Source of the DNA: Allokutzneria sp. NRRL B-24872
GTDB taxonomy: Bacteria; Actinomycetota; Actinomycetes; Mycobacteriales; Pseudonocardiaceae
DNA: 60,869 bases
Assembly: GCF_002155965.1 (NCBI RefSeq)
Contig: NZ_MUMH01000116.1
Coordinates: 1 to 60,869, forward strand
Reading direction: 5' to 3'
Under the pieces are notes generated by a model. That model did no database searches and had not been told where the DNA came from. It saw only the letters and a program-made list of their open reading frames with translations. A program made the translations under genes and the position numbers. Positions 42,270 through 57,449 of the stretch are shown piece after piece (positions within the stretch are counted from its first letter, which is position 1; each line of letters begins with the position of its first letter).

Positions 42270-42854
42270 ATGTTCGAAGTGGCGGTGATCGAGGACCCGG
42301 CGGCGGCCGAGGTCTGCCTGGACCCGATCCGCGCCCGGTTGCTGGCCGAGCTGGCCGAACCGGGCTCGGCGACCACGTTGGCGACCAAGGTCGGCCTGAC
42401 CAGGCAGAAGGTGAACTACCACCTGCGCGCCCTCGAGGCGCACGGGCTGGTGGAGCTGGTGGAGGAGCGGCCGAGGGGCAACTTCACCGAGCGGGTCCTG
42501 CGCGCCACCGCCGCCTCGTACGTGATCTCCCCGGCGGCGCTGGCCCCGGTCCAGCCCGATCCGGCCCGCGCGCGCGACAACCTGTCGGCGCGCTGGCTGC
42601 TGGCCGTGGCGGCGCGCCTCGTCCGCGACGTGGGCGCGCTGATCACCGGGGCCGCCAAGGCGCGCAAGCGCCTGGCCACCTTCGCGGTGGACGGCGAGAT
42701 CCGCTTCGCCACCGCCACCGATCGGGCGGCCTTCGCCGAGGAGTTGGGCTTCGCCGTGCGGAGCCTGGTCGCCAAGTACCACGATGAGTCCGCAGAGGGC
42801 GGACGACCGCACCGCGTCGTCGTCGCGTTGCACCCGAGCGTCAAGGAGAGTTGA
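42270..42854 (+). CDS. ArsR/HTH_20 transcriptional regulator
   Basis: A 194-residue winged-helix protein: the DNA-binding region spans about residues 15-75 (CLDPIRARLLAELAEPGSATTLATKVGLTRQKVNYHLRALEAHGLVELV), followed by a helical C-terminal part. Proteins of this type are often encoded directly before activator-of-Hsp90-like SRPBCC genes, as here, and usually repress them. The start is the ATG at 42270, right after the palindromic operator; longer readings pass through it. The next gene starts 5 bp after the stop. Confidence 0.88.
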   Translation: MFEVAVIEDPAAAEVCLDPIRARLLAELAEPGSATTLATKVGLTRQKVNYHLRALEAHGLVELVEERPRGNFTERVLRATAASYVISPAALAPVQPDPARARDNLSARWLLAVAARLVRDVGALITGAAKARKRLATFAVDGEIRFATATDRAAFAEELGFAVRSLVAKYHDESAEGGRPHRVVVALHPSVKES

Positions 42855-42859
42855 GAGAG

Positions 42860-43552
42860 ATGGGTCGCGAGTACGAGATCGTCAAGGAAGTCGCCCTGCC
42901 CGTGAGCCCGGACGCGGTCTGGGCGGCGGTCGCGACCGCGAACGGCCTGGCCGGCTGGTTCATGCCGATGGACATCTCCTCCGGCGAGGCCGAGGTCTGG
43001 GACCCGCCCAAGCACCTGGTGATCAAGAACCCGGCCGGCGAGGACGGGTCCTTCCACCGCTTCGAGTACGTCATCGACGGCGAGGACGGCCGCAGCTCGC
43101 TCCGCTACGTCCACAGTGGACGGACCGGGGACGGCTGGCCGGAGAACTACGAGGTGATCACCTCCTTCGGCTGGGACTTCTACCTGCACTCGCTGGAGGA
43201 GTACCTGGCCCACTTCGCCGGTCGCACCGCCGTCTACGTCGAGGCCGAGGGGCCCGCCGTCTCCGCCGAGCGCGCGGCGTGGGACCGCTTCGTCGCGGCG
43301 CAGGGCGTCTCCGCCGTCGGCGACAAGATCTCGGTGTCGCTGCCCGGCCTGCCGGCCATGGACGGCGTCGTCGACCTGATCAACGAGAACTTCCTCTGCT
43401 TCCGCACGGCCGACGCGCTCGTGCGCTTCCACGGCCGGATGCCGCAGAACATGCCGGTCGCGATCAGCCACCACGCCTTCACCCCGGTCGACGCCGACGC
43501 CTGCGCCGAGGCGTGGAAGACGTGGCTGGGCACGCAGTTCGAGGGGAGCTGA
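42860..43552 (+). CDS. SRPBCC (AHSA1-like) domain protein, copy 1
   Basis: A 230-residue protein with an Aha1/START-like SRPBCC fold at the front (about residues 6-125: EIVKEVALPVSPDAVWAAVATANGLAGWFMP, EVWDPPKHLVIKNP, FEYVIDG, WDFYLHSLEEYLAHFAG) and a second half of related alpha-beta pattern (KISVSLPGLPAMDGVVDLINENFLCFRTADALVRFHG). The ATG at 42860 is preferred over a TTG nine bases earlier. It is the first of three adjacent paralogues behind the ArsR gene. SRPBCC folds bind hydrophobic ligands; the ligand here is unknown. Confidence 0.88.
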   Translation: MGREYEIVKEVALPVSPDAVWAAVATANGLAGWFMPMDISSGEAEVWDPPKHLVIKNPAGEDGSFHRFEYVIDGEDGRSSLRYVHSGRTGDGWPENYEVITSFGWDFYLHSLEEYLAHFAGRTAVYVEAEGPAVSAERAAWDRFVAAQGVSAVGDKISVSLPGLPAMDGVVDLINENFLCFRTADALVRFHGRMPQNMPVAISHHAFTPVDADACAEAWKTWLGTQFEGS

Positions 43553-43553
43553 C

Positions 43554-44249
43554 ATGGGGCGCGAGTTCGAGCTGCGCAAGGAGGTCGTGCTGCCGGTGAG
43601 CCCGGAGCAGGTCTGGCAGGCCGTCGCCACGGCGCAGGGCCAGGCCGCCTGGTTCATGAGCACCGAGGACATCGCCCCGGCCGACGCCGAGGTCTGGGAC
43701 CCGCCCAAGCACCTGGTGATCAGGACGCCGCAGGCCGAGGACGGCTCCTTCCACGCCTTCGAGTACCTGATCGAGGGCCGCGAGGGCACCGCCGTGCTCC
43801 GCTTCGTCCACAGTGGAATGTCGGGCGAGGCGTGGCCGGACGAGTACGTCGACATGACCTCGATGGGCTGGAACACCTACCTGCACTCGCTGCGCGAGTA
43901 CCTGGTGCACTTCCCCGGCCGCCCCGCGCTGTACGTGGAGGCGGAGGCCCCGAAGTCCTCTGTGGACAGTGGGGCGTGGGACCGCTTGGTCGCGGAGCTC
44001 GGTGTGGCCGCGGTCGGCGACAAGGCGTCGATCCCGTTGCCCGGGCTGCCCAGTCAGGACGGCGTCGTGGACATCATCGAGGAGAGCTACGTCGGCATCC
44101 GCACGGCCGACTCGCTCGTGCGCTTCCACGGCCGGGCGCGCATCGGCATGCCGATCGCCGTCGGCCACCACGTGTACACACCGATCGACACCGACGCGTA
44201 CGGCAAGGCATGGGCGGCGTGGCTCGGCTCGGTCTACCAGGAGGTCTGA
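43554..44249 (+). CDS. SRPBCC (AHSA1-like) domain protein, copy 2
   Basis: Paralogue of the preceding gene (231 residues), one base after its stop, with GAGGGGAG as ribosome site. The same landmarks are present: LRKEVVLPVSPEQVWQAVATAQGQAAWFMS, EVWDPPKHLVIRTP, FEYLIEGREGTAVLRFVHSG, GWNTYLHSLREYLVHFPGRPALYVEAE, and IPLPGLPSQDGVVDIIEESYVGIRTADSLVRFHG. By eye it is closer to copy 3 than to copy 1. Recent duplication within the operon is likely. Confidence 0.88.
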   Translation: MGREFELRKEVVLPVSPEQVWQAVATAQGQAAWFMSTEDIAPADAEVWDPPKHLVIRTPQAEDGSFHAFEYLIEGREGTAVLRFVHSGMSGEAWPDEYVDMTSMGWNTYLHSLREYLVHFPGRPALYVEAEAPKSSVDSGAWDRLVAELGVAAVGDKASIPLPGLPSQDGVVDIIEESYVGIRTADSLVRFHGRARIGMPIAVGHHVYTPIDTDAYGKAWAAWLGSVYQEV

Positions 44250-44250
44250 G

Positions 44251-44943
44251 ATGACCCGTGAGTTCTCGCTGAGCAACGAGATCGTCCTGCCGGTCACTCC
44301 GGAGGAGGTCTGGACCGCCGTCGCCACCCCGGAGGGCCAGGCCGCCTGGTTCATGTCCGGCCACGCGGTCTCGCCCGAGGCCGCCGAGGTCTGGGACCCG
44401 CCGAAGCACCTGGTGATCAAGGCGCCGGAGCGCGAGGACGGCTCCTTCGACGCCTACGAGTACCTCATCGAGGGGCGCGAGGGCTCGACCGTGCTCCGCT
44501 TCGTCCACAGTGGACTCATCGTCGGGGACGGGTGGCCGGACGAGTTCGAGGACATGACCTCGGTGGGCTGGCGCACCTACCTGCACGCGCTGCGGGAGTA
44601 CCTCGTGCACTTCCCGGGGCGCCCGGCCGTCTACGTCGAGGCCGAGGGGCCGGAGCGGTCCGCGACCTGGCCCGGGTGGGAGCACTTCATCGCCTCGCTC
44701 GGTCCCACCGAGGTCGGCGACGAGGTGTCGTTGACCGTGCCGGGGCTGCCGAAGCAGGAGGGTGTCGTGGACATCGTCATGCCGGGCTTCGTCGGCATCC
44801 GCACGGGCGACTCGCTCCTGCGCTTCCACTGCAGGGTGCCCTTCGGCATGACGGCGGCCGTAGCGCACCACGTGTACTCGCTGATCGACGTCGACGCGTA
44901 CAACGCGGCCTGGAAGGAGTGGCTCGCTTCGGCCTTCGGCTGA
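44251..44943 (+). CDS. SRPBCC (AHSA1-like) domain protein, copy 3
   Basis: Third tandem paralogue (230 residues), starting one base after copy 2 with GGAGG ahead. Landmarks: LSNEIVLPVTPEEVWTAVATPEGQAAWFMS, EVWDPPKHLVIKAP, YEYLIEGREGSTVLRFVHSG, GWRTYLHALREYLVHFPGRPAVYVEAEG and LTVPGLPKQEGVVDIVMPGFVGIRTGDSLLRFH. All three copies contain a CCACAGTGG palindrome at the same codons (HSG). They probably form a set with different ligands or a hetero-oligomer, under ArsR control. Confidence 0.88.
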   Translation: MTREFSLSNEIVLPVTPEEVWTAVATPEGQAAWFMSGHAVSPEAAEVWDPPKHLVIKAPEREDGSFDAYEYLIEGREGSTVLRFVHSGLIVGDGWPDEFEDMTSVGWRTYLHALREYLVHFPGRPAVYVEAEGPERSATWPGWEHFIASLGPTEVGDEVSLTVPGLPKQEGVVDIVMPGFVGIRTGDSLLRFHCRVPFGMTAAVAHHVYSLIDVDAYNAAWKEWLASAFG

Positions 44944-44973
44944 GTGTCGGTGGCGCGGGTTACCTTCTGCGCC

Positions 44974-45924
44974 ATGAACGCCTTCCTCGCGGTGGCCGAC
45001 CCGTTCCGGCGGGAGTTGCTGGCGCACTGCTACCGGATGGTCGGCTCGGTGCACGACGCCGAGGACCTGGTGCAGGAGACCTACCTGCGCGCGTGGCGGG
45101 CCTACGACAGGTTCGAGCAGCGGTCGTCGGTGCGGACCTGGCTCTACCGCATCGCCACCCGCGTGTGCCTCACGGCGCTCGAAGGGCGGGGACGGCGACC
45201 GCTGCCGACAGGTCTCGGCGGCCCGCGCTGCGATCCCGGCGAGGAGCCCTTCCAGCCGCCGGAGATCACCTGGCTGGAGCCGTTCCCGGACCGCGACGAC
45301 GATCCCGCCAGCATCGTCGTCGGCCGGGAGAGCCTGCGTCTCGCGCTGGTCGCGGCGTTGCAGCACCTGCCGCCGCGCCAGCGCGCGGTGCTCGTGCTGC
45401 GCGATGTGCTCCAGTGGCGGGCCGCCGAGGTCGCCGAGGCGCTGGAGCTGTCGGTCGCGGCGGTGAACAGCCTGCTCCAGCGCGCCCGTGCTCAGCTGGA
45501 TTCCGTTGCGCCGCAACAGGACCAGCTCGTGGAGCGATCGGACCAGCGCGAACTGCTCGACCGCTACGTGCGCGCGTTCGAGGCCAAGGACGTCGCCGCG
45601 ATCGTCGCGCTGTTCACCGCCGACGCCGTCTGGGAGATGCCGCCGTTCGCCACCTGGTACCAGGGGCGGGAGGACATCGCGTGGCACCTCGCGAACCGCT
45701 GCCCGGCCGTGCCCGGTGGCCAGCGGCTCATCCCGATCAGCGCCAACGGGCAGCCCGGCTTCGCGAACTACCTGCGCGGGCCGGACGGCGTGATGCGCGC
45801 GTTCAACGTCCAAGTGCTGACCATCGGGCCGGGCGGTGTCTCGCACGCGGCCGTCTTCCTCGACACCAGCCTCTACGCCGCGTTCGGCCTGCCCGAGGTC
45901 CTCACGACGGCAGCCGAGGGCTGA
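44974..45924 (+). CDS. ECF sigma factor with SnoaL-like C-terminal domain (SigX5/TIGR02960 type)
   Basis: A 316-residue sigma-70 family factor. Sigma region 2 is ELLAHCYRMVGSVHDAEDLVQETYLRAW (around residues 14-41) and region 4 is LPPRQRAVLVLRDVLQWRAAEVAEALELSVAAVNSLLQRARAQL (around 127-170, in two parts); residues 190-310 form a SnoaL-like domain (VRAFEAKDVAAIVALFTADAVWEMPP). In such factors the C-terminal domain takes the role of an anti-sigma factor. The ATG at 44974 follows a TACCTT box (44961-44966) by 7 bases, implying a leaderless transcript. Its end overlaps the convergent SARP gene by 23 bases. Confidence 0.9.
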   Translation: MNAFLAVADPFRRELLAHCYRMVGSVHDAEDLVQETYLRAWRAYDRFEQRSSVRTWLYRIATRVCLTALEGRGRRPLPTGLGGPRCDPGEEPFQPPEITWLEPFPDRDDDPASIVVGRESLRLALVAALQHLPPRQRAVLVLRDVLQWRAAEVAEALELSVAAVNSLLQRARAQLDSVAPQQDQLVERSDQRELLDRYVRAFEAKDVAAIVALFTADAVWEMPPFATWYQGREDIAWHLANRCPAVPGGQRLIPISANGQPGFANYLRGPDGVMRAFNVQVLTIGPGGVSHAAVFLDTSLYAAFGLPEVLTTAAEG

Positions 45925-47686
45925 GCGTGGGGGACAGCGGCGTCGGGCTCGGTGCCCCGCCGAGCACCGCGGCCAGCCGCCGGGTGAGCAGGTCCACCGT
46001 GAACCCGTCCACCTCCGCGCGGATCAGGTTCCAGGTGACCAGCTCGCTCAGCGGCCGCCGCACGCTCGTCGCCGAGGTGCGCAGCAGCCCGGCCGCGTCC
46101 TCCACCGTGAACGAGGCGCGCGGCAGCATCCCCAGCAGCGCCAGCAGCCGCTGCGCCGCGAAGGTCAGCCGTTCCTGGGTGCGAGCGAAGGACGCGGGCA
46201 CGGAGGCGAGCTCGTCGCCGGGGATGACCATCGCGGCGAAGAAGTCGCCGGAGGACAGGTCGGTGACCAGCGCGGCGAGCGACTGGCCGCACCGGTTGGC
46301 CCCGGCGATCCGCACCGCGAGCGGGTTCCCGCAGCACAGCAGCGCGATCTCCGCGGCGGCGTCGTACTCCGTCATCACCAGCGCCTCGCCGGTGACCCTG
46401 CCGAGCAGCGCGACCGCCTCTGCGGTGGGCAGCGGCCCCAGCTCCACCCGGGCCGCCCCCTGAAGCGCGACCAGCCCGCTGAGCCGGTTCCTGCTGGTCA
46501 CCAGCACCGTGCACGGTGCTGAGCCGGGCAGCAGCGGCCTGATCTGGTCGGCGTGGGTGGCGTCGTCGATCACGATCAGCAGCCTGCGGTCGGCCAGCGC
46601 GGAGCGGAACAGCGCCGAGGCGCCGTCGACGCTCGGCGGCACCTCGGTGGCCGGGACGCCCAGTGACACCAGGAACGCGGTGAGCACGTCCAGCGTGCTC
46701 GCCCCGCCGCGCAGGTCCGCGTAGAGCTGGCCGTCCGGGAACCGCTCGGCCGCCCGGTGCGCCCAGTTCAGCGCGAGCGCGCTCTTGCCGATCCCGCCCG
46801 GCCCGGTCAGCACCACCAGCGAGCCGGGCTCCTCGTCCAGCAGGGCGAGTTCTTCTTGGCGCCCAACGAAATCCGGTACCGCGAGGGGCAGTTGCTGGGG
46901 CAGCGCCGCGCTGGCCCGCGCCGGGTTCAGCGACGGGTCGCCGTCCAGGATGCGCCGCCGCAGCTCGCACAGCGCGGCGCCGGGCTCGATGCCGAGCTCC
47001 TCGCGCAGCAGCACCTCGGCCCTGCGGTAGGTCGCCAGCGCGTCGGCCTGCCGCCCGGAGCGGTGCAGCGCCCGCATCTCCAGCTCCCACAGGCGTTCCC
47101 GCAGCGGGTTCGCGTTGGTCACCAGCGGCAGCTCGGCGGCGGCCACGTCGTGCCTGCCCAGCGCGAGCAGCGCCGCGTAGCGGTCCTCGGTGGCGTCCAG
47201 CCGCAGCTCCTCCAGCCGCGCCGCCTCGACCTCCAGCGCCTGCGGCAGCGGCAGGTCCTCCAGCACCGCTCCGCGCCACAGCTCCAGCGCGGCGGTCAAC
47301 CGGTCCAGCGCCAGCACCGGATCGCCCGCCGCCAGCGCCTCCCCGCCCGCCGCCGCGAGCTCCTGGAACCGCTCGGAGTCCAGCTCACCAGGCTCCACCC
47401 GCAGCAGGTAGCCGCCCCGGCTCGCGGGCAGCCGCGGCGCCGAGCCGTCGTCGTCGAGCACCTTGCGCAGACCCGCGAGGTAGGACTGCAGGTTCGCCGC
47501 GGCCGAGGGCGGCGGCTGGTCCCCCCACAGCTGCGTGACCAGCTCCGAGGTCCTGACCGGCTCGTTGGCGCGGGCGAGCAGCATCGCCAGCGCCACCCGC
47601 TGCTTGCGCCGGTTCAGCACGACCGGCGCGCCGGCCGCGTCGCGGACGTCCAGAGCGCCCAGTACCCGGAATCTCACGTCGCGCAT
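45902..47686 (-). CDS. AfsR/SARP family regulator with NB-ARC ATPase domain
   Basis: A 594-residue regulator with an OmpR-like winged helix (residues 1-95: FRVLGALDVRDAAGAPVVLNRRKQRVALAMLLARANEPVRT), a BTAD domain (about 95-250, ELGIEPGAALCELRRRIL at its end) and an NB-ARC ATPase domain (about 270-540; Walker A TGPGGIGKSALAL, then DDATHADQI and TSRNRLSGL). It lacks the long TPR region of full AfsR. It is divergent from the EF-hand/synthase operon and is its most likely activator; SARPs typically bind near the -35 region of biosynthetic promoters. Direct evidence for this target is positional only. Confidence 0.92.
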   Translation of the reverse strand: MRDVRFRVLGALDVRDAAGAPVVLNRRKQRVALAMLLARANEPVRTSELVTQLWGDQPPPSAAANLQSYLAGLRKVLDDDGSAPRLPASRGGYLLRVEPGELDSERFQELAAAGGEALAAGDPVLALDRLTAALELWRGAVLEDLPLPQALEVEAARLEELRLDATEDRYAALLALGRHDVAAAELPLVTNANPLRERLWELEMRALHRSGRQADALATYRRAEVLLREELGIEPGAALCELRRRILDGDPSLNPARASAALPQQLPLAVPDFVGRQEELALLDEEPGSLVVLTGPGGIGKSALALNWAHRAAERFPDGQLYADLRGGASTLDVLTAFLVSLGVPATEVPPSVDGASALFRSALADRRLLIVIDDATHADQIRPLLPGSAPCTVLVTSRNRLSGLVALQGAARVELGPLPTAEAVALLGRVTGEALVMTEYDAAAEIALLCCGNPLAVRIAGANRCGQSLAALVTDLSSGDFFAAMVIPGDELASVPASFARTQERLTFAAQRLLALLGMLPRASFTVEDAAGLLRTSATSVRRPLSELVTWNLIRAEVDGFTVDLLTRRLAAVLGGAPSPTPLSPTLSPRLPS

Positions 47687-47984: not shown

Positions 47985-48563
47985 ATGACTTCTTCGACGG
48001 CCTCTCCGGCGACCTCTTCGGAGAACCTGCTGGAGCGCAAGTACGCTCGCCGCTTCGCGATGTTCGACGTGGACGGCAACGGCCACCTGGAGCCGGAGGA
48101 CTTCGCCCAGCTCGCCGACCGGCTCATCGCGGGGCTCGGTGCCGACCCGGACTCGGCGAAGGCCCAGCGCGTGCGGGCGGGCTACCAGGACCTGTGCTCG
48201 GCGCTGGTCGGGGAGATCGACACCGACGGCGACGGCAGGATCTCCCAGCCCGAGTTCCTCACCGGCATGGCCCGCGTCGCCGGGGACCGCGAGGGCTTCG
48301 CGCGGATGATCGCCCCGCTGGCCCGTACCAACCTCGACCTGTGCGACACCGACGGGGACGGCCAGCTCGACCGGCAGGAGTTCGCGCGCCTGCTCGGTCT
48401 GTTCAACGCCGCGGCGATGGACGACGCCGGGCTGATCTTCGACCGGCTCGACACCGACGGCGGCGGCACCCTCTCGGTCGCGGAGATCCTCGACGCGCTC
48501 TGCGACTTCTACCTGAGCACCGACCCCGCCTCGCCGGGGAACCTGCTCTTCGGCGAGATCTGA
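47985..48563 (+). CDS. EF-hand calcium-binding protein (calerythrin-like)
   Basis: A 192-residue cytoplasmic protein with four EF-hand loops: DVDGNGHLEPEDF, DTDGDGRISQPEF, DTDGDGQLDRQEF and DTDGGGTLSVAEI. All positions needed for calcium are filled, apart from the last loop, where position 12 is Glu in AE. The spacing of the loops matches bacterial calerythrin/sarcoplasmic-type proteins. The ATG at 47985 with GGGAAG ahead is chosen over one ten codons earlier. It is the first gene of the synthase operon, 13 bp before the SDR gene, which suggests a calcium-dependent or structural role in that pathway; this is inference. Confidence 0.92.
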   Translation: MTSSTASPATSSENLLERKYARRFAMFDVDGNGHLEPEDFAQLADRLIAGLGADPDSAKAQRVRAGYQDLCSALVGEIDTDGDGRISQPEFLTGMARVAGDREGFARMIAPLARTNLDLCDTDGDGQLDRQEFARLLGLFNAAAMDDAGLIFDRLDTDGGGTLSVAEILDALCDFYLSTDPASPGNLLFGEI

Positions 48564-48576
48564 GGGGGGGCGGGCC

Positions 48577-49383
48577 GTGTTCGCGCTGGAAGGAAGAACG
48601 GCGCTGGTCACCGGCGCTTCGCGGGGGATCGGCAGGGCGATCGCGCTGGGCTGCGCCGAGGCGGGTGCCGACGTGGCGCTGCTGGCGCGCGGAAGCGACG
48701 CGCTGCGCGAGGTCGCCGAGATCGTGGAGAAGCTCGGCCGCCGCGCGGTCGTGCTGACCTGCGACGTCGGCGACGCCGAGCAGGTGCGCGCCGCGGTGTC
48801 GGACACCGTCGCGCAGTTCGGCCGGCTCGACGTGCTGGTCAACAACGCGGGCGGGTTCGGCTTCGCCGGGCCGTTCCTGGAGCTGACCGCGCAGGACTGG
48901 ACCGACGCGATCCGGCTCAACCTGGAGTCCGTCGTGCACTTCTGCCGCGAGGCGGGCCGGGTGATGGTGCGCCAGCGCTCCGGCTCGCTGATCAACATCG
49001 GCTCGGTGTCCGGGGTCGGCGGCGTGCCGATGCTCTCGCACTACGCGGCGACCAAGGCGGCGGTGGCGTCGCTGACCAGGTCGCTGGCCGCGGAGTGGGC
49101 GGCGAGCGGGGTGCGGGTCAACTGCGTGGTGCCTGGCTGGATCGCCACCGAGCTGACCAGCGCGATGTCCGGGCAGGAGCACATCTCCGACGGCCTGCTG
49201 CGTTCGGTGCCCGCGCGGCGGTGGGGCGATCCGGAGGACGTCGTCGGCGCCGTGCTCTACCTGGCCGGTGACGCGGCGCGGATGACAACGGGCTCGTGCC
49301 TGACCCTCGACGGCGGCATGACGAGCACGATCGGCGGCCCGACGCTGATCGAGCTGATGGAGATGGGACGGATACCGGTATGA
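48577..49383 (+). CDS. FabG-like short-chain dehydrogenase
   Basis: A classical SDR of 268 residues. Cofactor motif TGASRGIGRAIAL (residues 12-24) indicates NADP or NAD binding, NNAGG follows at about 89-93, the catalytic Ser is in IGSVSGVGG and the catalytic pair is YAATK. Residues PGWIATELTS and LTLDGGM complete the fold. It is likely a 3-oxoacyl reductase or an alcohol dehydrogenase working with the synthase. GTG start at 48577; its stop overlaps the AT-ACP start as ATGA. Confidence 0.9.
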   Translation: MFALEGRTALVTGASRGIGRAIALGCAEAGADVALLARGSDALREVAEIVEKLGRRAVVLTCDVGDAEQVRAAVSDTVAQFGRLDVLVNNAGGFGFAGPFLELTAQDWTDAIRLNLESVVHFCREAGRVMVRQRSGSLINIGSVSGVGGVPMLSHYAATKAAVASLTRSLAAEWAASGVRVNCVVPGWIATELTSAMSGQEHISDGLLRSVPARRWGDPEDVVGAVLYLAGDAARMTTGSCLTLDGGMTSTIGGPTLIELMEMGRIPV

Positions 49384-50693
49384 GCGCCAGGACGGTCCTG
49401 CTCTTCCCCGGCCTCGGGGCGTACTCCACGGGGATGCTGCGGCAGGCGGCCGGCGAGCACCCGGAGGTCTCACGGACCCTCGCCGAGATCGACCGCGCCG
49501 CCGCCCAGCACGGAGTTCCCTCTGTGGCGCAAGCGGTTCTGCGGGACGAGCCGCGGCCGATCCGCGAGATGCTGGCGTTGCCGACCGAGGTCCTCCAGTT
49601 GGCGATCTTCGGCGCGTCGGTGGTGACGCACCGGGTGCTCGCGGCGGCGGGGCTGCGGCCGTACGCCTTGCTGGGGCACAGTTTCGGCGAGATGGCCGCG
49701 CTCGTGTCCGCGGGCGCGTTCACCCTCGCCGAAGGGGTGCGCCTGGTGTGCGCCCGCGCCGAGGCGCTCGCCGACTGGGAGGGCAAGGGGGCGATGGCCG
49801 CCGTCGGCGCGAACGAGGCCGTGGTGCGGCACCTGATCGGCGCGATGGACGAGCCGGAGCTCGCGGTCGGCTGCCTCAACGCGCCGAGGCAGACGGTGAT
49901 CAGCGGCCCGGTCGAGGCGATCGACCGCGCCGGGCGGGTGGCCAAGGCGCTGGAGCTGTTCTACGCCAAGCTCCACCTGCCCTACGCCTCGCACCACCCG
50001 AGCGCCCGGCCCGCGGTCGCGCGGTTCCTCGGGCTGATGTCGGGGATCGAGCAGAAACCCTTGGAGCACAGGGTGTACTCGCCGGTCCACGGCCGGTGGT
50101 ACTCCGACATCGACGACCTGAAGCACGCCATCGCGGAGTGCATGGTGCTGCCGGTGCGCTTCACCGACGCGGTCCGCGACCTGCACTCCTCGGGGGCGAC
50201 GGTGTTCGTGGAGTCCGGAGCGCTCAACGCGCTCACGCGCTGTGTCGAGCTGACGGTGCCCGGGGTGCGCACGATCGCCCCGCTGCTCGATCCCGCTGAC
50301 GAGACGGGGGGTTTGCGGCGCGCGCTCACCGGGGAGGCCGATGTGCGCCCGCAGCGGACCGACACCGCCTCCGCAGTCGTTGCGCCGGTGGAGATCCCCG
50401 CCGCGCGCGAGCCGGAACCGGTGGTCGAGACGGCCCTCGGCAAGGACGCCGTGCTGGCGAAGCTGCGCGCGCTGTACGCGGCGGCGCTGGAGTACCCGGA
50501 GGACGCGCTCACCGAGCAGGCGCTGCTCGAAGCCGAACTCGGCGTGGACTCGTTGAAGCAGACCGCTCTGCTGTCGCGGGTGGTGGAGGAGTTCGGCCTG
50601 CCCGACCAGCCCGGCGAGCTGCGGGTGTGGGAACTGCCGTCGCTCGGTGCGATCGCCGATCACGTCATGGGCGCAGAGCGGGTTCTGTCATGA
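49380..50693 (+). CDS. acyltransferase-acyl carrier protein (AT-ACP) didomain
   Basis: A 437-residue protein. The front (about 1-300) is a malonyl/acyl-CoA:ACP transacylase of the FabD/PKS-AT fold: FPGLGAYSTGM, the nucleophile Ser101 in LLGHSFGEMAALVSAGA, and ASHHPSARP (catalytic His region). After a linker rich in Ala/Pro/Glu comes a carrier protein (about 350-430) with the phosphopantetheine serine Ser391 in LGVDSLKQTALL. No phosphopantetheinyl transferase is visible in the window. AT-ACP fusions of this shape are uncommon; here it would load and carry the chain for the following synthase. Both neighbours overlap it by four bases. Confidence 0.9.
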   Translation: MSARTVLLFPGLGAYSTGMLRQAAGEHPEVSRTLAEIDRAAAQHGVPSVAQAVLRDEPRPIREMLALPTEVLQLAIFGASVVTHRVLAAAGLRPYALLGHSFGEMAALVSAGAFTLAEGVRLVCARAEALADWEGKGAMAAVGANEAVVRHLIGAMDEPELAVGCLNAPRQTVISGPVEAIDRAGRVAKALELFYAKLHLPYASHHPSARPAVARFLGLMSGIEQKPLEHRVYSPVHGRWYSDIDDLKHAIAECMVLPVRFTDAVRDLHSSGATVFVESGALNALTRCVELTVPGVRTIAPLLDPADETGGLRRALTGEADVRPQRTDTASAVVAPVEIPAAREPEPVVETALGKDAVLAKLRALYAAALEYPEDALTEQALLEAELGVDSLKQTALLSRVVEEFGLPDQPGELRVWELPSLGAIADHVMGAERVLS

Positions 50694-53600
50694 GCCGGAT
50701 CGTCCTCGTCACGGGCGGCGTGCGCGGGCTGGGCAAGGCCATCGCGCTCGCGTTCGCCGCCCGTGGTGACCGGGTGATCGCCAACTACTTCCACGCCCGT
50801 GAGCAGGCGGTCGCGTTCGAGGCCGAATGCGCGGCGCTGGGCCACCCGGTCGAGCTGATCAGGGCATCGGTGGCCAATCAGGGCCAGGTCGAGGCGATGT
50901 TCGACGAGATCGCGGCACGCCACGGCCGGCTTGACGTGCTGGTGAACAACGCCGCGTCCGGAGCACTGCTCCCACTGTCCGAAGTGGACGATTCGCACTG
51001 GCAGCGCGCCTTCGACACCAACGTGCGCGGAAGCCTGTGGTGCGCGCGCAGGGCCGTCGAGCTGATGACGGGGGAGCACCCGGCGATCGTCAACCTGTCC
51101 TCGCTCGGCAGCGGCATGGTGATCAGCGACTACGCCACGGTCGGCACCACCAAGGCCGCGGTGGAGTCGCTGACCCGCTACCTCGCCGTCGAGTACGCCG
51201 GGCGCGGGATCAGGGTGAACACCGCCTCCGGTGGCCTGCTGGACAACGCGATCGCCGGGATGTTCCCGGACGCGCAAGCGCTCGCGGACCAGGTCCGGGC
51301 GTCCACGCCGCTGGGCAACCGCCTCGGCACCGAGCGGGAGCTGGCCGAGCTGGTGGTCTTCCTGGCCTCCCCGCAGGCGTCCTGGATCACCGGGCAGACC
51401 GTCATCGCCGACGGCGGCCTGTCACTGGGCGCGATGTCGTTGTCCCCCAGGCGCGATGAGCCCGAGTCGGTGCCGGGGGCGATCGCCGTGGTCGGCATGG
51501 GCGTGGTCGCGCCCGGTGCGACCGACCCCGTCGAGCTGTGGAAGGTGCTCTCCGGCGAGCACAACGTCTTCGTCGAGCCGGAGCGCTTCGACATCTCCTC
51601 CTTCCACTCCACCGATCCGGCCGCCGAGGACCGCACGTACACGCGGCGGTCCGGCTTCGTGACGTCGTTCGACCCGCATCCCGAGTTGGCCGACCGGAGC
51701 ACGCAGTGGTTGCGGCACAGCCTGATCGCGGCGTTGGCGGGCGTGCGCACCGGCGACCGGTGCTTCGCCGCGTTCGGTGCGACGGCGGACGGCAGCCAGG
51801 AGCTGGAGGAGTACCTGGTCTACGCGGGTGCGCGGGAGCACTTGGGGGACAACGAGGTTCTCCGTGATCGCTACGTCCGCGGAACGGACCCCTCGGAGTA
51901 CCTGCCCCATCGCATCGGCCGCAACGCCATCGCGGGACTGCTGCCGGACAGGACCGAGCTGGTCATGGTCGACACGGCGTGCTCGTCCTCGCTCTACGCG
52001 ATCGACCTGGGCATGAAGGCGCTGCGCGAGGGCTCGTGCGAGGTCGCGGTGTGCGGTGGGACTTTCGCCTACAGCGCGCGGAACCTGGTGCTCTTCTCGA
52101 AGCTCTCCGGGCTCTCCAGGTCGGGGCAGGTCCGCTCCTTCGACCGAGCCGCAGACGGCGTGCTGTTCTCCGACGGAGCCGGGGTCGTCGTGCTCAAACA
52201 GCTCGACAGGGCACGTGCGGACGGTGATCGGGTGCTCGGTGTGATCGAGAGCGTCGGCCTGTCCTGCGACGGGCGCGGCAAGGCGATCTACGCGCCCAAC
52301 GAGGCCGGGCAGGCTTTCGCGCTCCGCCGCGCTTACGAACGCGCTGGTGCCGACCCGGCTTCGGTGCAGTGGGTGATCGGCCACGCCACGGGCACGCAGG
52401 CGGGCGACAGCACGGAGTTGGCCGCGCTGCACCGGGTCGCCGGCTCCGGCCCGCCCGCGCTGTTGTCGTCGAACAAACCGATCGTCGGGCACACCGGGTG
52501 GAGCGCGGGCATCGTGTCGCTGGTGCAGGCCCTGTCCGGGCTGGAGCGCGGATCGGTTCCGGCGCAACGCTATCTCCAACAACCGATCCCGATCCTGGAG
52601 GGCAGCCGGTTTCGGCCGATGACCACCGAAACCCCTTTGCCAGCAAGGAAACCTCGACGCGTGGCGGTCTCCTCGTTCGGGTTCGGCGGAACCAACGCGC
52701 ACCTGCTGCTCTCCGACACCCCGACGGCTCGCGAGGACGCGCTCTCCACCGACGAGCTGGTCGTGGTCGGCTGGTCGGCGCACCTGCCCGGTTTCGACGC
52801 CGCTGAGGCCTCCGCGTGGCTCCGCGGTGACCGAGCCGCTCCGGCCGTGGGCTTCGGCACCGACTACCCGTTGCCCTCCTTCGCGGAAGTGCGGCTGCCG
52901 CCAGCGACGCTGCGCACGATGGACCGCAGCCAGATCATGGTGCTGCGCGCCGCCGGCCAGCTCGACCCGCGGGTGCGGGCGATGTGCGAGGAGCTGAAGG
53001 ACACGACCGGTGTCGTGGTCGGTCACACCGGGCCGACCCGGCGCGCCGTGCAGTACGCGTTGCGCTGCTACCTGGGCGATCTGCGCACCTGCGCCGGATC
53101 GGAGCCCGGGTTCGGTGAACTGGAGCGGGAGGTGCGCGCGGCCGTTCCGCCCAGCACGGAGGACGCCTTCCCCGGGATCATGCCGAACCTGATCCCGGCC
53201 AGGTTGTCCGCGCTGGCCGACTGGCACGGGCTGAACCTCACCGTGGACACCGGGGTCGACGCCGGGATCGACGCGATCCGGTGCGCGGAGCGGTATCTCC
53301 GCCACGGAGACCTGGACGTCGCCGTGGTGGCCGGAGTCAGCGGCAACAGCGGCCCCGAGCTGGCGGCCGTCATCGCCGACCACCCGCCGGTCGCGGAGGG
53401 CGCTTTCATGGTGGTGCTGACCAGGAAGTCCACCGCCGCGCGGCACGGCCTGCCCGTTCTCGGCACCGTTCGCACGGAACTCGGCTCTGTGGAGCCGCTT
53501 TCCCGGCCGCAGGCAGTTCGCCCGCTCGCCGGGCTCGGACGCACCTACCTCGGCGCGGACCCGCTGCTGGTGATGACCGCGGCCTTGGCTTCAGGTCGGT

Positions 53601-55684
53601 CGAGCACGATCGGCGGTGCGTGCGAATGGGGACCGAAGATCGTCTTCGCGCCACCGCCCGCTGCCGTCGAGCGGATGGAGCGCCGCCTCGCGCAGGCGCC
53701 GCCGCGCCCGGTCCGGCCACCACTGCCCGCCATCCCCGACGGAGCCTTGGTGATCACGGAGGAGACCGAGGCAGTGTCCGCCGCTCGGCACGTCCGCGTG
53801 ATCATCGACATCGGCGCGTCACGGACGTCGCCAGAAGACCTGTCGGCCTTGTCGCGCCTGCGAGAAGTGCACGACCTGGCCTACGAGGCGGCTCAGTTGT
53901 GGGAGGAGGACGGCTCGTTCGCGGTGCTGATGGTCGACGCGCTGCGCGACGGCGTCGTCCATCCCGCCACCGCGCCGTTCACCGGGCTGGTGAAGAGCCT
54001 CGCCAGGGAGAGGTTCGCCTTCGCCGTCCTCACCGATTCGGTGGACATGACTCCGGACGTGCTGGCAACGGAGTCCGCGCTGGACCGCGAGCTGGCCGTG
54101 GCGGTGTACTCCGGTGGCAGGCGGATGGAGCACGTGCTGTGCCCGGCCCCGGTCGTTCCCGGCCCGGTCGAGCCGATCGACGTCGTCGTCGCCGTGGGAG
54201 GAGCGCGCGGGCTGACCGCGCGGTTGCTCGGCGATCTGGCCCGCGAGCACCAGCCGACGATCTACGTGCTGAGCCGGACGGGGCCCGGAACCGATGTCGC
54301 GACCCGGCAGGCGTTCATCGCCGAGCATCCACAGTGGACTGTTCGTGAGGCTTCGGCGGAGTTCGACCGGCGGCTCGCGGCAGCGGAGGCCCGGCGCACG
54401 CTGGAGGCGCTCACCGAGCTGTGCGGCGAGGGGAAGGTCCACCACATACCCTGCGACGTCACCGATGCGGAGGCCGTCACGGCTGCGGTCGGCCAGCTCC
54501 CCGCGCGGGTGGACCTGCTGATCAACGCCGCCGGGCTGCACAACGGCGGTGGGGTTCGCTCGGTGTCGCTGGAGCGGGCGCGCGCGGTCCGTGACACCAA
54601 GTTGCTCGGCTACCTCAACCTGCGCCGCGCGTTCGCGGGCCGCGAACCGGCGCGGTGGATCAACTTCGGCTCCTTGCTCGCGGTGCTCGGCTGGCCGGGG
54701 GAGGCGGATTACTGCTCCGGCAACGACATCCTGAACGCGGCGGCGAGCTGGCAGCGGAACTTCGGCGGAACGCACGAGACGACGCTGTCCTGGGCGCTGT
54801 GGACGGAGTCGGGTTTCGCCGCCCAGCCGGTGATCCGCGATCTCCTGCTCCGGCAGAACGCGCTGACCGGGCTCTCCGACATTGACGGCAGTGCGCTGTT
54901 CGCCGGCGAACTGTCCACTGTGGATGGAACGCCGGAGGTGACCTACCTCGGTCCTGCGGAGCGGCGCCTCGTCTCCCTGCGCTGGCGGCCCTCCGGTGAT
55001 TTCCTTTCCTGTCATCGCATCCGTGGCCGCGCCGTGGTGCCCGCCGCGATGATCATCGACCAGATCGCGCGTCCGGGCGATGTGCTCACCGACCTGGAGT
55101 TCCACGCGCCGGTGCTGCCGGACTCGGATTACCGGGTGACGGCCGACGCCGTGCTGAGCGACCTCGCGGTGCTCAAGGCGCCTCGCGCGCACATGACCTG
55201 CACCGTCCACGCCGGACAGTCGTCCCGGTCGTCCGTGGAGCGAGTCGTGGGGGCCGCGATCACGCCGCCCTTCTACTCGCCGGGTGGAGAGGTCGAGCTG
55301 AGCGGGCCGTTCGCCTCGCTCCGCGATGTCCAGATCTCCGATTCGGGTGCTTCAGCGGTGTTCGCGCCGTCGTTGGCGGAATGGGACTTCTCGTCCTTCC
55401 GGGCCCCTGTTCTGCTCGTCGACGCGTTGGTGCAGCTGCTGTTGCTGCCGCGCATCGCGATCCCCGTGCGCATCGGCATGGTCGAACTGCGCACGGAGTT
55501 CAACGACGTCGAACTCCTCTCCCTTCACGGCAAGTCGATCGTGCTGACCACGGACGGCTCCGGTGCCGCCGTGGCGAGTGCGGCCGGGACCGTGCTCGTC
55601 GTGGTGTCCGGAGTGGAAACGAGACAAGGAGAAGCCAGTGAGCGATCAGAGCCTGTCAGCGTTGGCGCGGTTGGTGCACGGTGA
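50690..55684 (+). CDS. multidomain fatty-acid/polyketide synthase: ER(FabL-like)-KS-CLF-KR-DH
   Basis: A 1664-residue enzyme. Residues 1-262 are an SDR whose catalytic spacing is Tyr148-x6-Lys155 (YATVGTTKAAVESLTRYLAVE), as in the enoyl-ACP reductase FabL, not the YxxxK of FabG. Residues about 275-700 are a ketosynthase with Cys431 (DTACSSSLYA), His565 (HATGTQAGD) and His601 (KPIVGHTGWSAG) intact. Residues about 710-1040 are a second KS-like fold in which the Cys is replaced (TVDTGVDAGIDA, Val856), as in chain-length factors. About 1155-1420 is a ketoreductase (GGARGLTARLLG, Tyr1341 in YCSGNDILN). About 1425-1640 is a hot-dog dehydratase with His1442 in CHRIRGRAVVP (HxxxGxxxxP). No carrier or thioesterase domain is inside; the AT-ACP is the preceding gene. 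KS-CLF-DH recalls PUFA synthases. Domain order was read by eye. Confidence 0.88.
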   Translation: MSRIVLVTGGVRGLGKAIALAFAARGDRVIANYFHAREQAVAFEAECAALGHPVELIRASVANQGQVEAMFDEIAARHGRLDVLVNNAASGALLPLSEVDDSHWQRAFDTNVRGSLWCARRAVELMTGEHPAIVNLSSLGSGMVISDYATVGTTKAAVESLTRYLAVEYAGRGIRVNTASGGLLDNAIAGMFPDAQALADQVRASTPLGNRLGTERELAELVVFLASPQASWITGQTVIADGGLSLGAMSLSPRRDEPESVPGAIAVVGMGVVAPGATDPVELWKVLSGEHNVFVEPERFDISSFHSTDPAAEDRTYTRRSGFVTSFDPHPELADRSTQWLRHSLIAALAGVRTGDRCFAAFGATADGSQELEEYLVYAGAREHLGDNEVLRDRYVRGTDPSEYLPHRIGRNAIAGLLPDRTELVMVDTACSSSLYAIDLGMKALREGSCEVAVCGGTFAYSARNLVLFSKLSGLSRSGQVRSFDRAADGVLFSDGAGVVVLKQLDRARADGDRVLGVIESVGLSCDGRGKAIYAPNEAGQAFALRRAYERAGADPASVQWVIGHATGTQAGDSTELAALHRVAGSGPPALLSSNKPIVGHTGWSAGIVSLVQALSGLERGSVPAQRYLQQPIPILEGSRFRPMTTETPLPARKPRRVAVSSFGFGGTNAHLLLSDTPTAREDALSTDELVVVGWSAHLPGFDAAEASAWLRGDRAAPAVGFGTDYPLPSFAEVRLPPATLRTMDRSQIMVLRAAGQLDPRVRAMCEELKDTTGVVVGHTGPTRRAVQYALRCYLGDLRTCAGSEPGFGELEREVRAAVPPSTEDAFPGIMPNLIPARLSALADWHGLNLTVDTGVDAGIDAIRCAERYLRHGDLDVAVVAGVSGNSGPELAAVIADHPPVAEGAFMVVLTRKSTAARHGLPVLGTVRTELGSVEPLSRPQAVRPLAGLGRTYLGADPLLVMTAALASGRSSTIGGACEWGPKIVFAPPPAAVERMERRLAQAPPRPVRPPLPAIPDGALVITEETEAVSAARHVRVIIDIGASRTSPEDLSALSRLREVHDLAYEAAQLWEEDGSFAVLMVDALRDGVVHPATAPFTGLVKSLARERFAFAVLTDSVDMTPDVLATESALDRELAVAVYSGGRRMEHVLCPAPVVPGPVEPIDVVVAVGGARGLTARLLGDLAREHQPTIYVLSRTGPGTDVATRQAFIAEHPQWTVREASAEFDRRLAAAEARRTLEALTELCGEGKVHHIPCDVTDAEAVTAAVGQLPARVDLLINAAGLHNGGGVRSVSLERARAVRDTKLLGYLNLRRAFAGREPARWINFGSLLAVLGWPGEADYCSGNDILNAAASWQRNFGGTHETTLSWALWTESGFAAQPVIRDLLLRQNALTGLSDIDGSALFAGELSTVDGTPEVTYLGPAERRLVSLRWRPSGDFLSCHRIRGRAVVPAAMIIDQIARPGDVLTDLEFHAPVLPDSDYRVTADAVLSDLAVLKAPRAHMTCTVHAGQSSRSSVERVVGAAITPPFYSPGGEVELSGPFASLRDVQISDSGASAVFAPSLAEWDFSSFRAPVLLVDALVQLLLLPRIAIPVRIGMVELRTEFNDVELLSLHGKSIVLTTDGSGAAVASAAGTVLVVVSGVETRQGEASERSEPVSVGAVGAR

Positions 55685-57449
55685 CTGTGAGCCCGAGTTC
55701 CGCGACGAGCTGCGCAAGATCTTCGGCGATGAGCTGTTCGCCCGGCGCGACGGGCTCACCTACCAGGAGGAGCTGCGGCTGACCTACGAGCGGATGCGCT
55801 TCGCCAACGACCACGTCAGCCCGGAGGAGCTGGTGGAGCACCCGCACCGCCTGTTCGCGTTGCTGGAGTTCTCCGCTGTGGTAAGCCCGTCGCTGTTCAT
55901 CGCCATGGTGACGCACTACTGCGGCGCCTTGGCGGCGATCCGCGAACTCGGTGCGGGCCGCGACGACCTCGACGAGTACGTCACCGCACTGGAGAAGATG
56001 ACCTCGACGGGCGCGTTGCTGATCACCGAGCTCGGCTACGGCAACAGCCACGTTTCCATGCGCACACGGGCGACCTACGACCACGAGCGCCGCGACTTCG
56101 TGTTGCACACACCGGATGAGGCCGCCCGCAAGTTCATGCCCAACGTCGGCCTTCCCGGTGTGCCCAAGCTCGCGACCGTCGCCGCGCAGCTCAACATCGG
56201 CGGCGAGGACCGTGGTGTCTTCCTGTTCGTGGTGCACCTGCGCGGGGATGACGGGCTGCTCCCGGGCGTGACGATCACCCAGCTGCCCGAGGCGACGCAG
56301 GTGCCGATGGACTACGCGGTGATCTCCTTCGACCACGTTCGCGTGCCGATGAGTTCGCTGCTGCACGACAGCGCCTCCATCGCCGAGGACGGTGACTTCC
56401 ACGACCCGATCGACGACCAGAAGGCGCGCTTGGTGCGCTCGCTCACCGTCGCGCAGAGCGTGCGCACCGCCCAGACCGCCGCGCTCGCCGCAGCCGCGCG
56501 CGCCAGTGCTCAGATCGCGCTGCGCTACTCGATGAACCGCCCCGCCATGGAGCCGAACAGCCCGTGGGGCCCGGTGATCCGCCACCGCACCCAGCAGCGC
56601 GCGCTCTACGGCGCTCTCGCCACCGCCTACGCCCTGACGTGCCACGCCAACCGCGCGAAGGCCGCCAAGGCCACGGCGATGATCCACAACTCCACCAACC
56701 GCCAGGTCCCGCCGTCGCCGTTGGACCCGCTGCCCAGGACCTTGTCGCTGACCAAGGCCATCACCACGTGGAAGACCGAGCGCCTGACCGCCGAGTGCAG
56801 GCAGCGGTGCGGCGCGCGCGGTGTCTTCACGGTCAACCGCCTGCTGGACTACCAGGGCTTGGCCATCGTCAGCAATGCCGCTGGGGGTGACAACTTCCTG
56901 CTGTGCCTCGACGCCGCGCGGTCGATGATCGCCGACCACCACTACGAGCCGCCGTCGGCCGATCTGCTCGACCGCGATCTCTGGCTCAGCCTGCTCGGCA
57001 CCCGCGAACGCGAACTCCACCGCGCCCTCAAGTCCCACGACAGCCTCACCGAGGCCGTGGAGTTCGTCGAGGCCCACGGCAACCGGCTGATCCTGGCGAG
57101 CTTCCTGGAGGCTGTATCCACTGTGAACTCTCCGGAGGCCGCAGCGGCGCTGCGCCCGCTGACCGAGCTCTACGCCCTGACGGAGATCCAGTCTGCTGCG
57201 GCGTGGTACCTCTGCGAAGGGTTGCTGACCCCCGCTCAGGTCCGGTCGATCCCCGGGCGCCTCAACGAACTGTGCGAGGAGCTGACGCCGCACGTCGACC
57301 TGTTGCTCGCCGCGTTCGAGCTGCCCGAGGACCTGCTTCGCGTGCCGATCACCAACGGCGACCTGTCCATGGTCGCGGACACGGACACCGTCGACCTCCC
57401 CCAGCAGCGCGCCACCACGGAGCTTCCCACTGTTGCCGCTGTGCCGTGA
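55638..57449 (+). CDS. acyl-CoA oxidase/dehydrogenase-like flavoprotein
   Basis: A 603-residue protein of the acyl-CoA oxidase family. The front third shows YQEELRLTYERMRFANDHV and the flavin/substrate motif LLITELGYGNSHVSMRTRATYDHERRDFVLHTP; the middle has PMDYAVISFDHVRVPMSSLL; a helical half includes RCGARGVFTVNRLLDYQGL and VSNAAGGDNFLLCLDAAR. Peroxisomal-type oxidases introduce an alpha-beta double bond with release of hydrogen peroxide. Start GTG at 55638 with AAGGAG 6 bases ahead, inside the last 47 bases of the synthase gene, so the two are coupled. It may desaturate or tailor the synthase product. Confidence 0.88.
   Translation: MSDQSLSALARLVHGDCEPEFRDELRKIFGDELFARRDGLTYQEELRLTYERMRFANDHVSPEELVEHPHRLFALLEFSAVVSPSLFIAMVTHYCGALAAIRELGAGRDDLDEYVTALEKMTSTGALLITELGYGNSHVSMRTRATYDHERRDFVLHTPDEAARKFMPNVGLPGVPKLATVAAQLNIGGEDRGVFLFVVHLRGDDGLLPGVTITQLPEATQVPMDYAVISFDHVRVPMSSLLHDSASIAEDGDFHDPIDDQKARLVRSLTVAQSVRTAQTAALAAAARASAQIALRYSMNRPAMEPNSPWGPVIRHRTQQRALYGALATAYALTCHANRAKAAKATAMIHNSTNRQVPPSPLDPLPRTLSLTKAITTWKTERLTAECRQRCGARGVFTVNRLLDYQGLAIVSNAAGGDNFLLCLDAARSMIADHHYEPPSADLLDRDLWLSLLGTRERELHRALKSHDSLTEAVEFVEAHGNRLILASFLEAVSTVNSPEAAAALRPLTELYALTEIQSAAAWYLCEGLLTPAQVRSIPGRLNELCEELTPHVDLLLAAFELPEDLLRVPITNGDLSMVADTDTVDLPQQRATTELPTVAAVP

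Follow-up and report, generated by a model that had tools for sequence, protein, structure and literature searches.

A conserved actinobacterial operon for a putative iterative KS-CLF lipid synthase with an unusual acyl-CoA-oxidase homologue

What might be made by an operon that places an EF-hand gene and a homologue of acyl-CoA oxidases on either side of a fatty-acid-like synthase? The question is raised by a locus of Allokutzneria sp. NRRL B-24872 within the window analysed here (the whole stretch of 60,869 nucleotides, bases 1-60,869 of contig C20), which belongs to an 8.19-Mb draft genome (G000) with 101 ketosynthase (KS) matches. The operon (47985-57449) consists of five genes on the forward strand, free of internal stops, encoding an EF-hand protein, a short-chain dehydrogenase/reductase (SDR1), an acyltransferase-acyl carrier protein (AT-ACP), a synthase with enoyl reductase (ER), KS, chain-length factor (CLF), ketoreductase (KR) and dehydratase (DH) domains, and the oxidase homologue. 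With gene starts picked from overlap and upstream sequence, the intergenic gaps are, 5' to 3', +13, -4, -4 and -47 bp, and a SARP/AfsR-like regulator gene is divergent from the operon; coordinates and Pfam matches agree in all these respects with a sequence-only reading of the same DNA. Judged from its sequence, the operon on balance probably serves to make a specialised, possibly methyl-branched lipid by means of an iterative synthase that resembles those of fatty acids, with an oxidase homologue attached to the pathway.

The signature motifs of the AT-ACP, the KS-CLF pair, the KR, the DH and the FabL-like ER are intact in this tightly packed operon. SDR1 (48577-49383, 268 aa) is a FabG-like SDR according to Pfam, NCBI models and alignment, and carries Y-x3-K, as do its counterparts in two relatives. 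The AT-ACP protein (49380-50693, 437 aa) was recognised by Pfam and by its motifs, GHSFGE and YASH in the AT and a single LGVDSLK in the ACP. The 1664-aa synthase (50690-55684; Pfam, motifs and alignment) comprises, with approximate boundaries for all but region X and the DH, an N-terminal ER (50690-51436), a KS with Cys-His-His motifs (51470-52771; Pfam, motifs and tree), a CLF (52772-53851), a region X (53852-54181), a KR with the motif GSLL...DYCSGN (54182-54916; Pfam) and a DH (54917-55684). Region X, conserved in the alignment and matched there by no Pfam model, is probably the structural half of the KR, as its position suggests. The predicted domain content (ER-KS-CLF-KR-DH, AT-ACP and FabG-like SDR) was supported, although not every domain scored equally: EF-hand, SDR, AT, PP-binding, KS, KR and ACOX passed the Pfam cut-offs in the operon proteins, the CLF appeared as a weaker second ketoacyl-synt stretch in which the active-site Cys is replaced by Gly (TVDTGVDA, compared with VDTACSS), and the DH of the window copy gave no Pfam hit. 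This DH nevertheless has the motifs HRIRGRAVVP (HxxxGxxxxP) and DALVQ (DxxxQ), and PKS_DH_N is matched by the Burkholderia synthase (locus L065) and by the KR-DH protein of locus L157.

The fused N-terminal SDR is likely an enoyl reductase of the FabL type. Its best match in the PDB, spanning the whole domain, is Bacillus subtilis FabL (3oic, 187.7 bits; the next match scores 134.1), and Y-x6-K is found in 14 of 15 aligned fused SDRs, the fifteenth (L156) having been read out of frame. The FabL signature is Y-x6-K without the internal Met of FabI (PMC9260719), and the window domain shares both features. The proposed FabL-type ER fusion is thus upheld, yet the domain differs from B. subtilis FabL in being joined to a KS-CLF synthase and in falling short of the NCBI FabL equivalog cut-off. 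Among 80 loci kept from a scan of genome contigs with SDR-derived patterns, only L065 carries the synthase; at L098, from the same set, the SDR and KS matches are separate.

The KS-CLF pair is a trait of polyunsaturated-fatty-acid (PUFA, Pfa) synthases, and the synthase might be a rearranged enzyme of this kind that makes long-chain polyunsaturated fatty acids. The ACP motif LGVDSLK, which we take to be of the kind found in Pfa ACPs, would fit such an origin, and the PfaA model TIGR02813 matches the protein, but with 219.8 bits, far below its cut-off of 1010.1. The same genome offers a direct comparison, as two of its loci are classed as Pfa-type by domain content: C31 (L167:9428-19899) encodes one protein with KS, AT, ACP, KR and a polyketide synthase (PKS)-type DH and a second with KS, CLF, a weak AT match and FabA, and C42 (L168:8766-16049) has NMO, KS, AT, ACP and KR in one PfaA-like protein. 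Pfam found in the five operon proteins neither a FabA-like DH/isomerase (PF07977), present in C31, nor a PfaD-type (NMO) ER (PF03060), present in C42. The same scan detected no thioesterase and, in place of tandem ACPs, one PP-binding stretch with one ACP motif, as had been claimed. The type of DH and the number of ACPs distinguish the two kinds of synthase less clearly than a comparison with textbook Pfa enzymes would imply, since C31 shares with the window both a PKS-type DH and a single PP-binding stretch, which makes the missing tandem ACPs a weak test; a survey of secondary-lipid synthases also did not rule out clusters with one ACP (PMC3098273). The KS domains were compared in a 34-row tree (with L053 dropped for an internal stop), in which a branch with 100/99 support separates 16 family KSs and the KS of L059 from the Pfa-type KSs, all from the host genome, and from modular-PKS and HxcO-linked KSs. 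Because the KS stands apart from the Pfa-type KSs of its own genome, and because FabA-type DH and PfaD-type ER are absent, the synthase is probably not a PUFA synthase, and we regard a rearranged Pfa enzyme as very unlikely. The Pfa and secondary-lipid synthases surveyed by Shulse and Allen (2011, PMC3098273) resemble it in their iterative type I logic, in KS-CLF, KR, DH and ACP content and in patchy distribution, but the window has a separate, single-ACP AT-ACP protein, an N-terminally fused FabL-like SDR as ER and no FabA-like DH. None of their 20 types matches the window architecture as described in the sections consulted, whereas Type M and several others are given in a figure only, so that identity with one of these is possible; Type M hosts are Actinosynnema, Frankia, Renibacterium and S. 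avermitilis (PMC3098273).

The neighbourhood comparison that had been proposed was made across 297 genomes of the host's family, of which 32 matched the oxidase query at E <= 1e-60; 30 oxidase matches were taken with short flanks, and 12-20-kb regions were taken for 20 of these. The order SDR1, AT-ACP, ER-KS-CLF-X-KR-DH and oxidase is common to seven genomes including that of the window (two from its own genus, four from genus g22 and one from genus g24), with synthase identities of 56-58% outside the own genus. As this order is kept in seven genomes of three genera, the gene set is more than a chance association. The synthase itself is more widespread: a CLF plus region X query (E <= 1e-25) matched 41 of the 297 genomes and five of 197 in a sample of the class, the own genome included. 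It is also present in Burkholderia puraquae and on a plasmid of Paraburkholderia ginsengisoli (Burkholderiaceae), and three Streptomyces plasmid records carry it, whole or in part. The locus is therefore no isolated oddity but, as these counts and the KS tree indicate, a branch of a large synthase family. A synthase-oxidase fusion in G023 (L054), suggested by a long open frame, was rejected; its translation loses the family likeness in the DH stretch.

To place the cassette within this family, a quick tree was built from 55 family KSs and two outgroups, leaving out L216 (no CLF) and L156 (broken frame); several second CLF matches lie outside this set, and L155, L225 and L229 group with the outgroups on long branches, which makes their membership unsure. 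Neighbour genes of the 55 loci were called by tblastn with single queries within 9 kb. An ER match was found at 41 loci, in one open frame with the KS at all 41. Oxidase matches occur at eight loci, namely the seven of the window clade and L059, whose oxidase keeps the catalytic Glu discussed below. A cytochrome P450 match occurs at 22 of the 55 loci, and in 16 of the 18 rows of the clade to which the window clade, together with its only Streptomyces neighbour (L154), is attached; at L153, L158 and L160 the P450 gene directly follows the synthase (KR-DH) gene, the position held by the oxidase in the window clade. These P450s near related synthases therefore indicate oxidative tailoring of the synthase product. 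Ten of the 55 synthases have a wax ester synthase/diacylglycerol acyltransferase (WS/DGAT) match, nine of them in two separate subclades. In ten genomes, seven of them picked for having such a neighbour, adjacent WS/DGAT genes numbered nine, compared with about 0.13 expected by chance; as the loci share ancestry, the Poisson figure for this excess overstates the certainty. The gene suggests that an ester lipid is formed in the g22 and g16 relatives. Further partners of the synthase core include AMP ligases and PKS modules, and the Gram-negative relative L153 adjoins genes annotated for lipoprotein sorting, ATP-binding cassette (ABC)/FtsX proteins, a phosphopantetheinyl transferase and a lipase. 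Contig C5 of G194 carries a tandem pair of synthase cassettes from different subclades (L215 and L046), both of which have a WS/DGAT gene of their own.

An unusual member of the cassette is the last gene (55638-57449, 603 aa), whose product passes the cut-offs of PF22924 and PF01756 and matches peroxisomal acyl-CoA oxidases in Pfam and the PDB. It retains, as TELGYGN, the motif T-E-x-G-x-G, which we take to be the flavin adenine dinucleotide (FAD)-site motif of acyl-CoA oxidases. At the position aligned with the catalytic Glu of the rat enzyme, presumably residue 421, it has Gly, so that the label of acyl-CoA oxidase is to be read with reserve. In an alignment of 33 homologues and a rat fragment, Glu is replaced by Gly or Ala in 14 of the 34 sequences, among them all seven cassette copies, and a branch with 100/99 support sets these 14 apart from the rest (tree built with the Glu column left in, one of 591). 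An enlarged set gave 21 rows without Glu among 42, three of the 21 being repeats. A KS or β-ketoacyl-ACP synthase III (KASIII) match lies in the region of all 14 Glu-less genes; beyond the seven cassettes, the neighbours are genes of the KS-AT-ACP-thioesterase type at L063 and L064 and, judged by similarity to L164, at L058; KS genes at L060; and KASIII together with SDR1-like and AfsA-type hotdog genes at L162 (identified by Pfam) and at L161 and L163 (identified by similarity). KS neighbours are not peculiar to this clade, since ten of the copies that keep Glu likewise lie no more than 1.5 kb from a KS match. At L162:9032-13471, and by similarity at L161, L163 and L165, KASIII, a FabG-like SDR, an AfsA-type hotdog protein and a Glu-less oxidase are encoded in a row, perhaps a pathway to a signalling lactone. 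In Streptomyces chattanoogensis (L172:7645-15526), AT, Glu-less oxidase, SDR, KASIII and KS genes form a dissociated set.

Because the usual proton-abstracting Glu is missing, we infer that the enzyme acts on an activated substrate or by means of a relocated base. The second possibility could leave it a normal α,β-desaturase of the HxcO/Aco kind, working on an ACP-bound chain with its catalytic base moved. Isovaleryl-CoA dehydrogenase is a case of such a moved base, the FAD-site motif is kept, and 13 of the 14 Glu-less copies share an Asp two residues beyond the place of the Glu. HxcO and CtmB (PMC9136287) and Aco, the synthase of the autoregulator avenolide (PMC7670052), are likewise oxidase- or dehydrogenase-type enzymes encoded beside acyl-chain or signal genes, and the relative L050, one of the Glu-bearing KS-linked copies, carries a KASIII-ACP-KS-oxidase row like the CtmA-D cassette of cystargamide (PMC9136287). 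The window operon, by contrast with L050, has neither KASIII nor a free ACP in Pfam. The catalytic position also differs, as judged from KS-linked Glu-bearing homologues standing in for HxcO, CtmB and Aco: Glu is present in ten copies that have a KS match no more than 1.5 kb away (L021-L025, L027, L029, L030, L032 and L035), whereas the cassette oxidases sit in the well-supported Glu-less clade. We therefore hold a desaturase with a displaced base to be possible but doubtful. The acyl-CoA dehydrogenase fold has elsewhere been turned to other chemistry, to oxygenation in TdaE (PMC8283759) and to decarboxylation-desaturation-epoxidation in EpxF, a flavoenzyme that works on a β-keto acid from a PKS/nonribosomal peptide synthetase pathway (PMC12624316). 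The profile of the window oxidase matched 39 sequences, but the PDB entry of EpxF, 9gn5, is not one of them.

The AT offers a hint of the extender unit. YASH is the mark of methylmalonyl-selective ATs, and it is present in all seven cassette ATs as opposed to none of 45 other ATs, 31 of which have xFH and 14 no recognisable motif. Because YASH suggests methylmalonyl units, methyl branches are suggested for the product, tentatively so because the active site GHSFGE differs from the GHSQGE of methylmalonyl ATs.

The EF-hand protein (47985-48563, 192 aa; Pfam and PDB search) has three EF-hand_1 stretches that pass Pfam, and four loops can be recognised by eye. Its closest PDB chains are 3akb/3aka, a putative calcium binding protein, and calerythrin (1nya), from which it differs in being encoded inside a lipid-synthase operon. 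The SARP/AfsR-like regulator (45902-47686, reverse strand; BTAD, Trans_reg_C and NB-ARC in Pfam) has an orthologue in the corresponding position of G068, the other genome of the genus; outside the host genome, the EF-hand gene keeps its place there only. Both genes could be mere neighbours with no role in the pathway: neither stands at the same place in five g22/g24 loci, and EF-hand genes are numerous, with 8 to 13 PF13499 matches per genome in four genomes. However, the EF-hand and SDR1 genes are 13 bp apart and have the same order in G068, and an EF-hand match lies within 9 kb of the synthase at four of the 55 family loci (the window, G068, G194 and G113). In G194 the gene lies about 4 kb beyond the cassette, and in G113 (L224) the end of the EF-hand match is followed after 11 bp by the AT match of a distantly related synthase that has no ER (measured between match ends, not gene ends). 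Given this recurrence, the EF-hand gene is likely no stray in the operon, and a purely fortuitous placement of the two genes seems unlikely to us. A second EF-hand/oxidase neighbourhood occurs in G239 (L061:8724-11182), where the match of a Glu-keeping oxidase follows an EF-hand match at a distance of about 100 bp. On the far side of the regulator, window positions 44944-45924 encode a sigma-70 factor that has a SnoaL-like domain at its C terminus and is conserved next to the G068 operon as well. Positions 42851-44937 hold three tandem reading frames, 53-64% identical to one another, of which the first two score as AHSA1; G068 retains two of the three next to its operon.

In the iterative lipid synthase that we favour, the AT would load an extender unit on its ACP, the KS-CLF pair would elongate the chain, and KR, DH and ER would reduce each cycle, fully or selectively, with the acyl chain remaining bound to the ACP. 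Changes of oxidation state close to the thioester would follow, made by SDR1 and the oxidase homologue, the latter probably taking an activated substrate (a β-keto or decarboxylating acyl chain) or using a relocated base. The EF-hand protein would probably assist the synthase in response to calcium, and the product of the SARP gene would probably be an activator of the operon; in relatives, the WS/DGAT gene suggests that the chain would end in an ester lipid. Several observations weigh against this scheme. The window operon, G068 and the G023 locus have no WS/DGAT gene. The mixed signature of the AT (YASH with GHSFGE) blurs its specificity, the ER domain scores 238.9 bits where the NCBI FabL equivalog model demands 328, and the presence of KR and ER together leaves unspecified the cycles in which each acts. 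Predicted structures were unusable: a model of the oxidase alone reached a predicted local distance difference test (pLDDT) score of 38.9, too low to locate an alternative base, and one of the KR-DH half, made with one relative, reached 34.7. A bolder proposal goes further: the Glu-less clade would be a new class of thioester-acting, ketosynthase-partnered flavoenzymes that oxidise an activated chain from the KS-CLF pair, perhaps decarboxylating or oxygenating it in the manner of EpxF, and the operon, along with the large synthase family, would thereby make a new kind of methyl-branched, α/β-oxidised lipid under EF-hand calcium control. We put this forward as a speculation that is rather improbable as a whole.

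In the open-access literature, to which the search was confined (subscription papers and MIBiG lay outside its scope), we found no description of the gene set or of the synthase family among the papers listed, and no paper that brings together an acyl-CoA oxidase, an EF-hand, a polyketide and a biosynthetic gene cluster; within that literature, the claim that no characterised pathway has this set stands. The locus is thus real, conserved and, as far as open-access papers show, undescribed, and it appears to encode an iterative KS-CLF lipid synthase with an unusual flavoenzyme. The oxidase homologues that lack the textbook base form a natural set, all 14 near a KS or KASIII match, which makes the function of such enzymes directly testable. 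The synthase family, common in one actinobacterial family (41 of 297 genomes) and reaching into the Burkholderiaceae, is a possible source of specialised lipids that are as yet uncharacterised.

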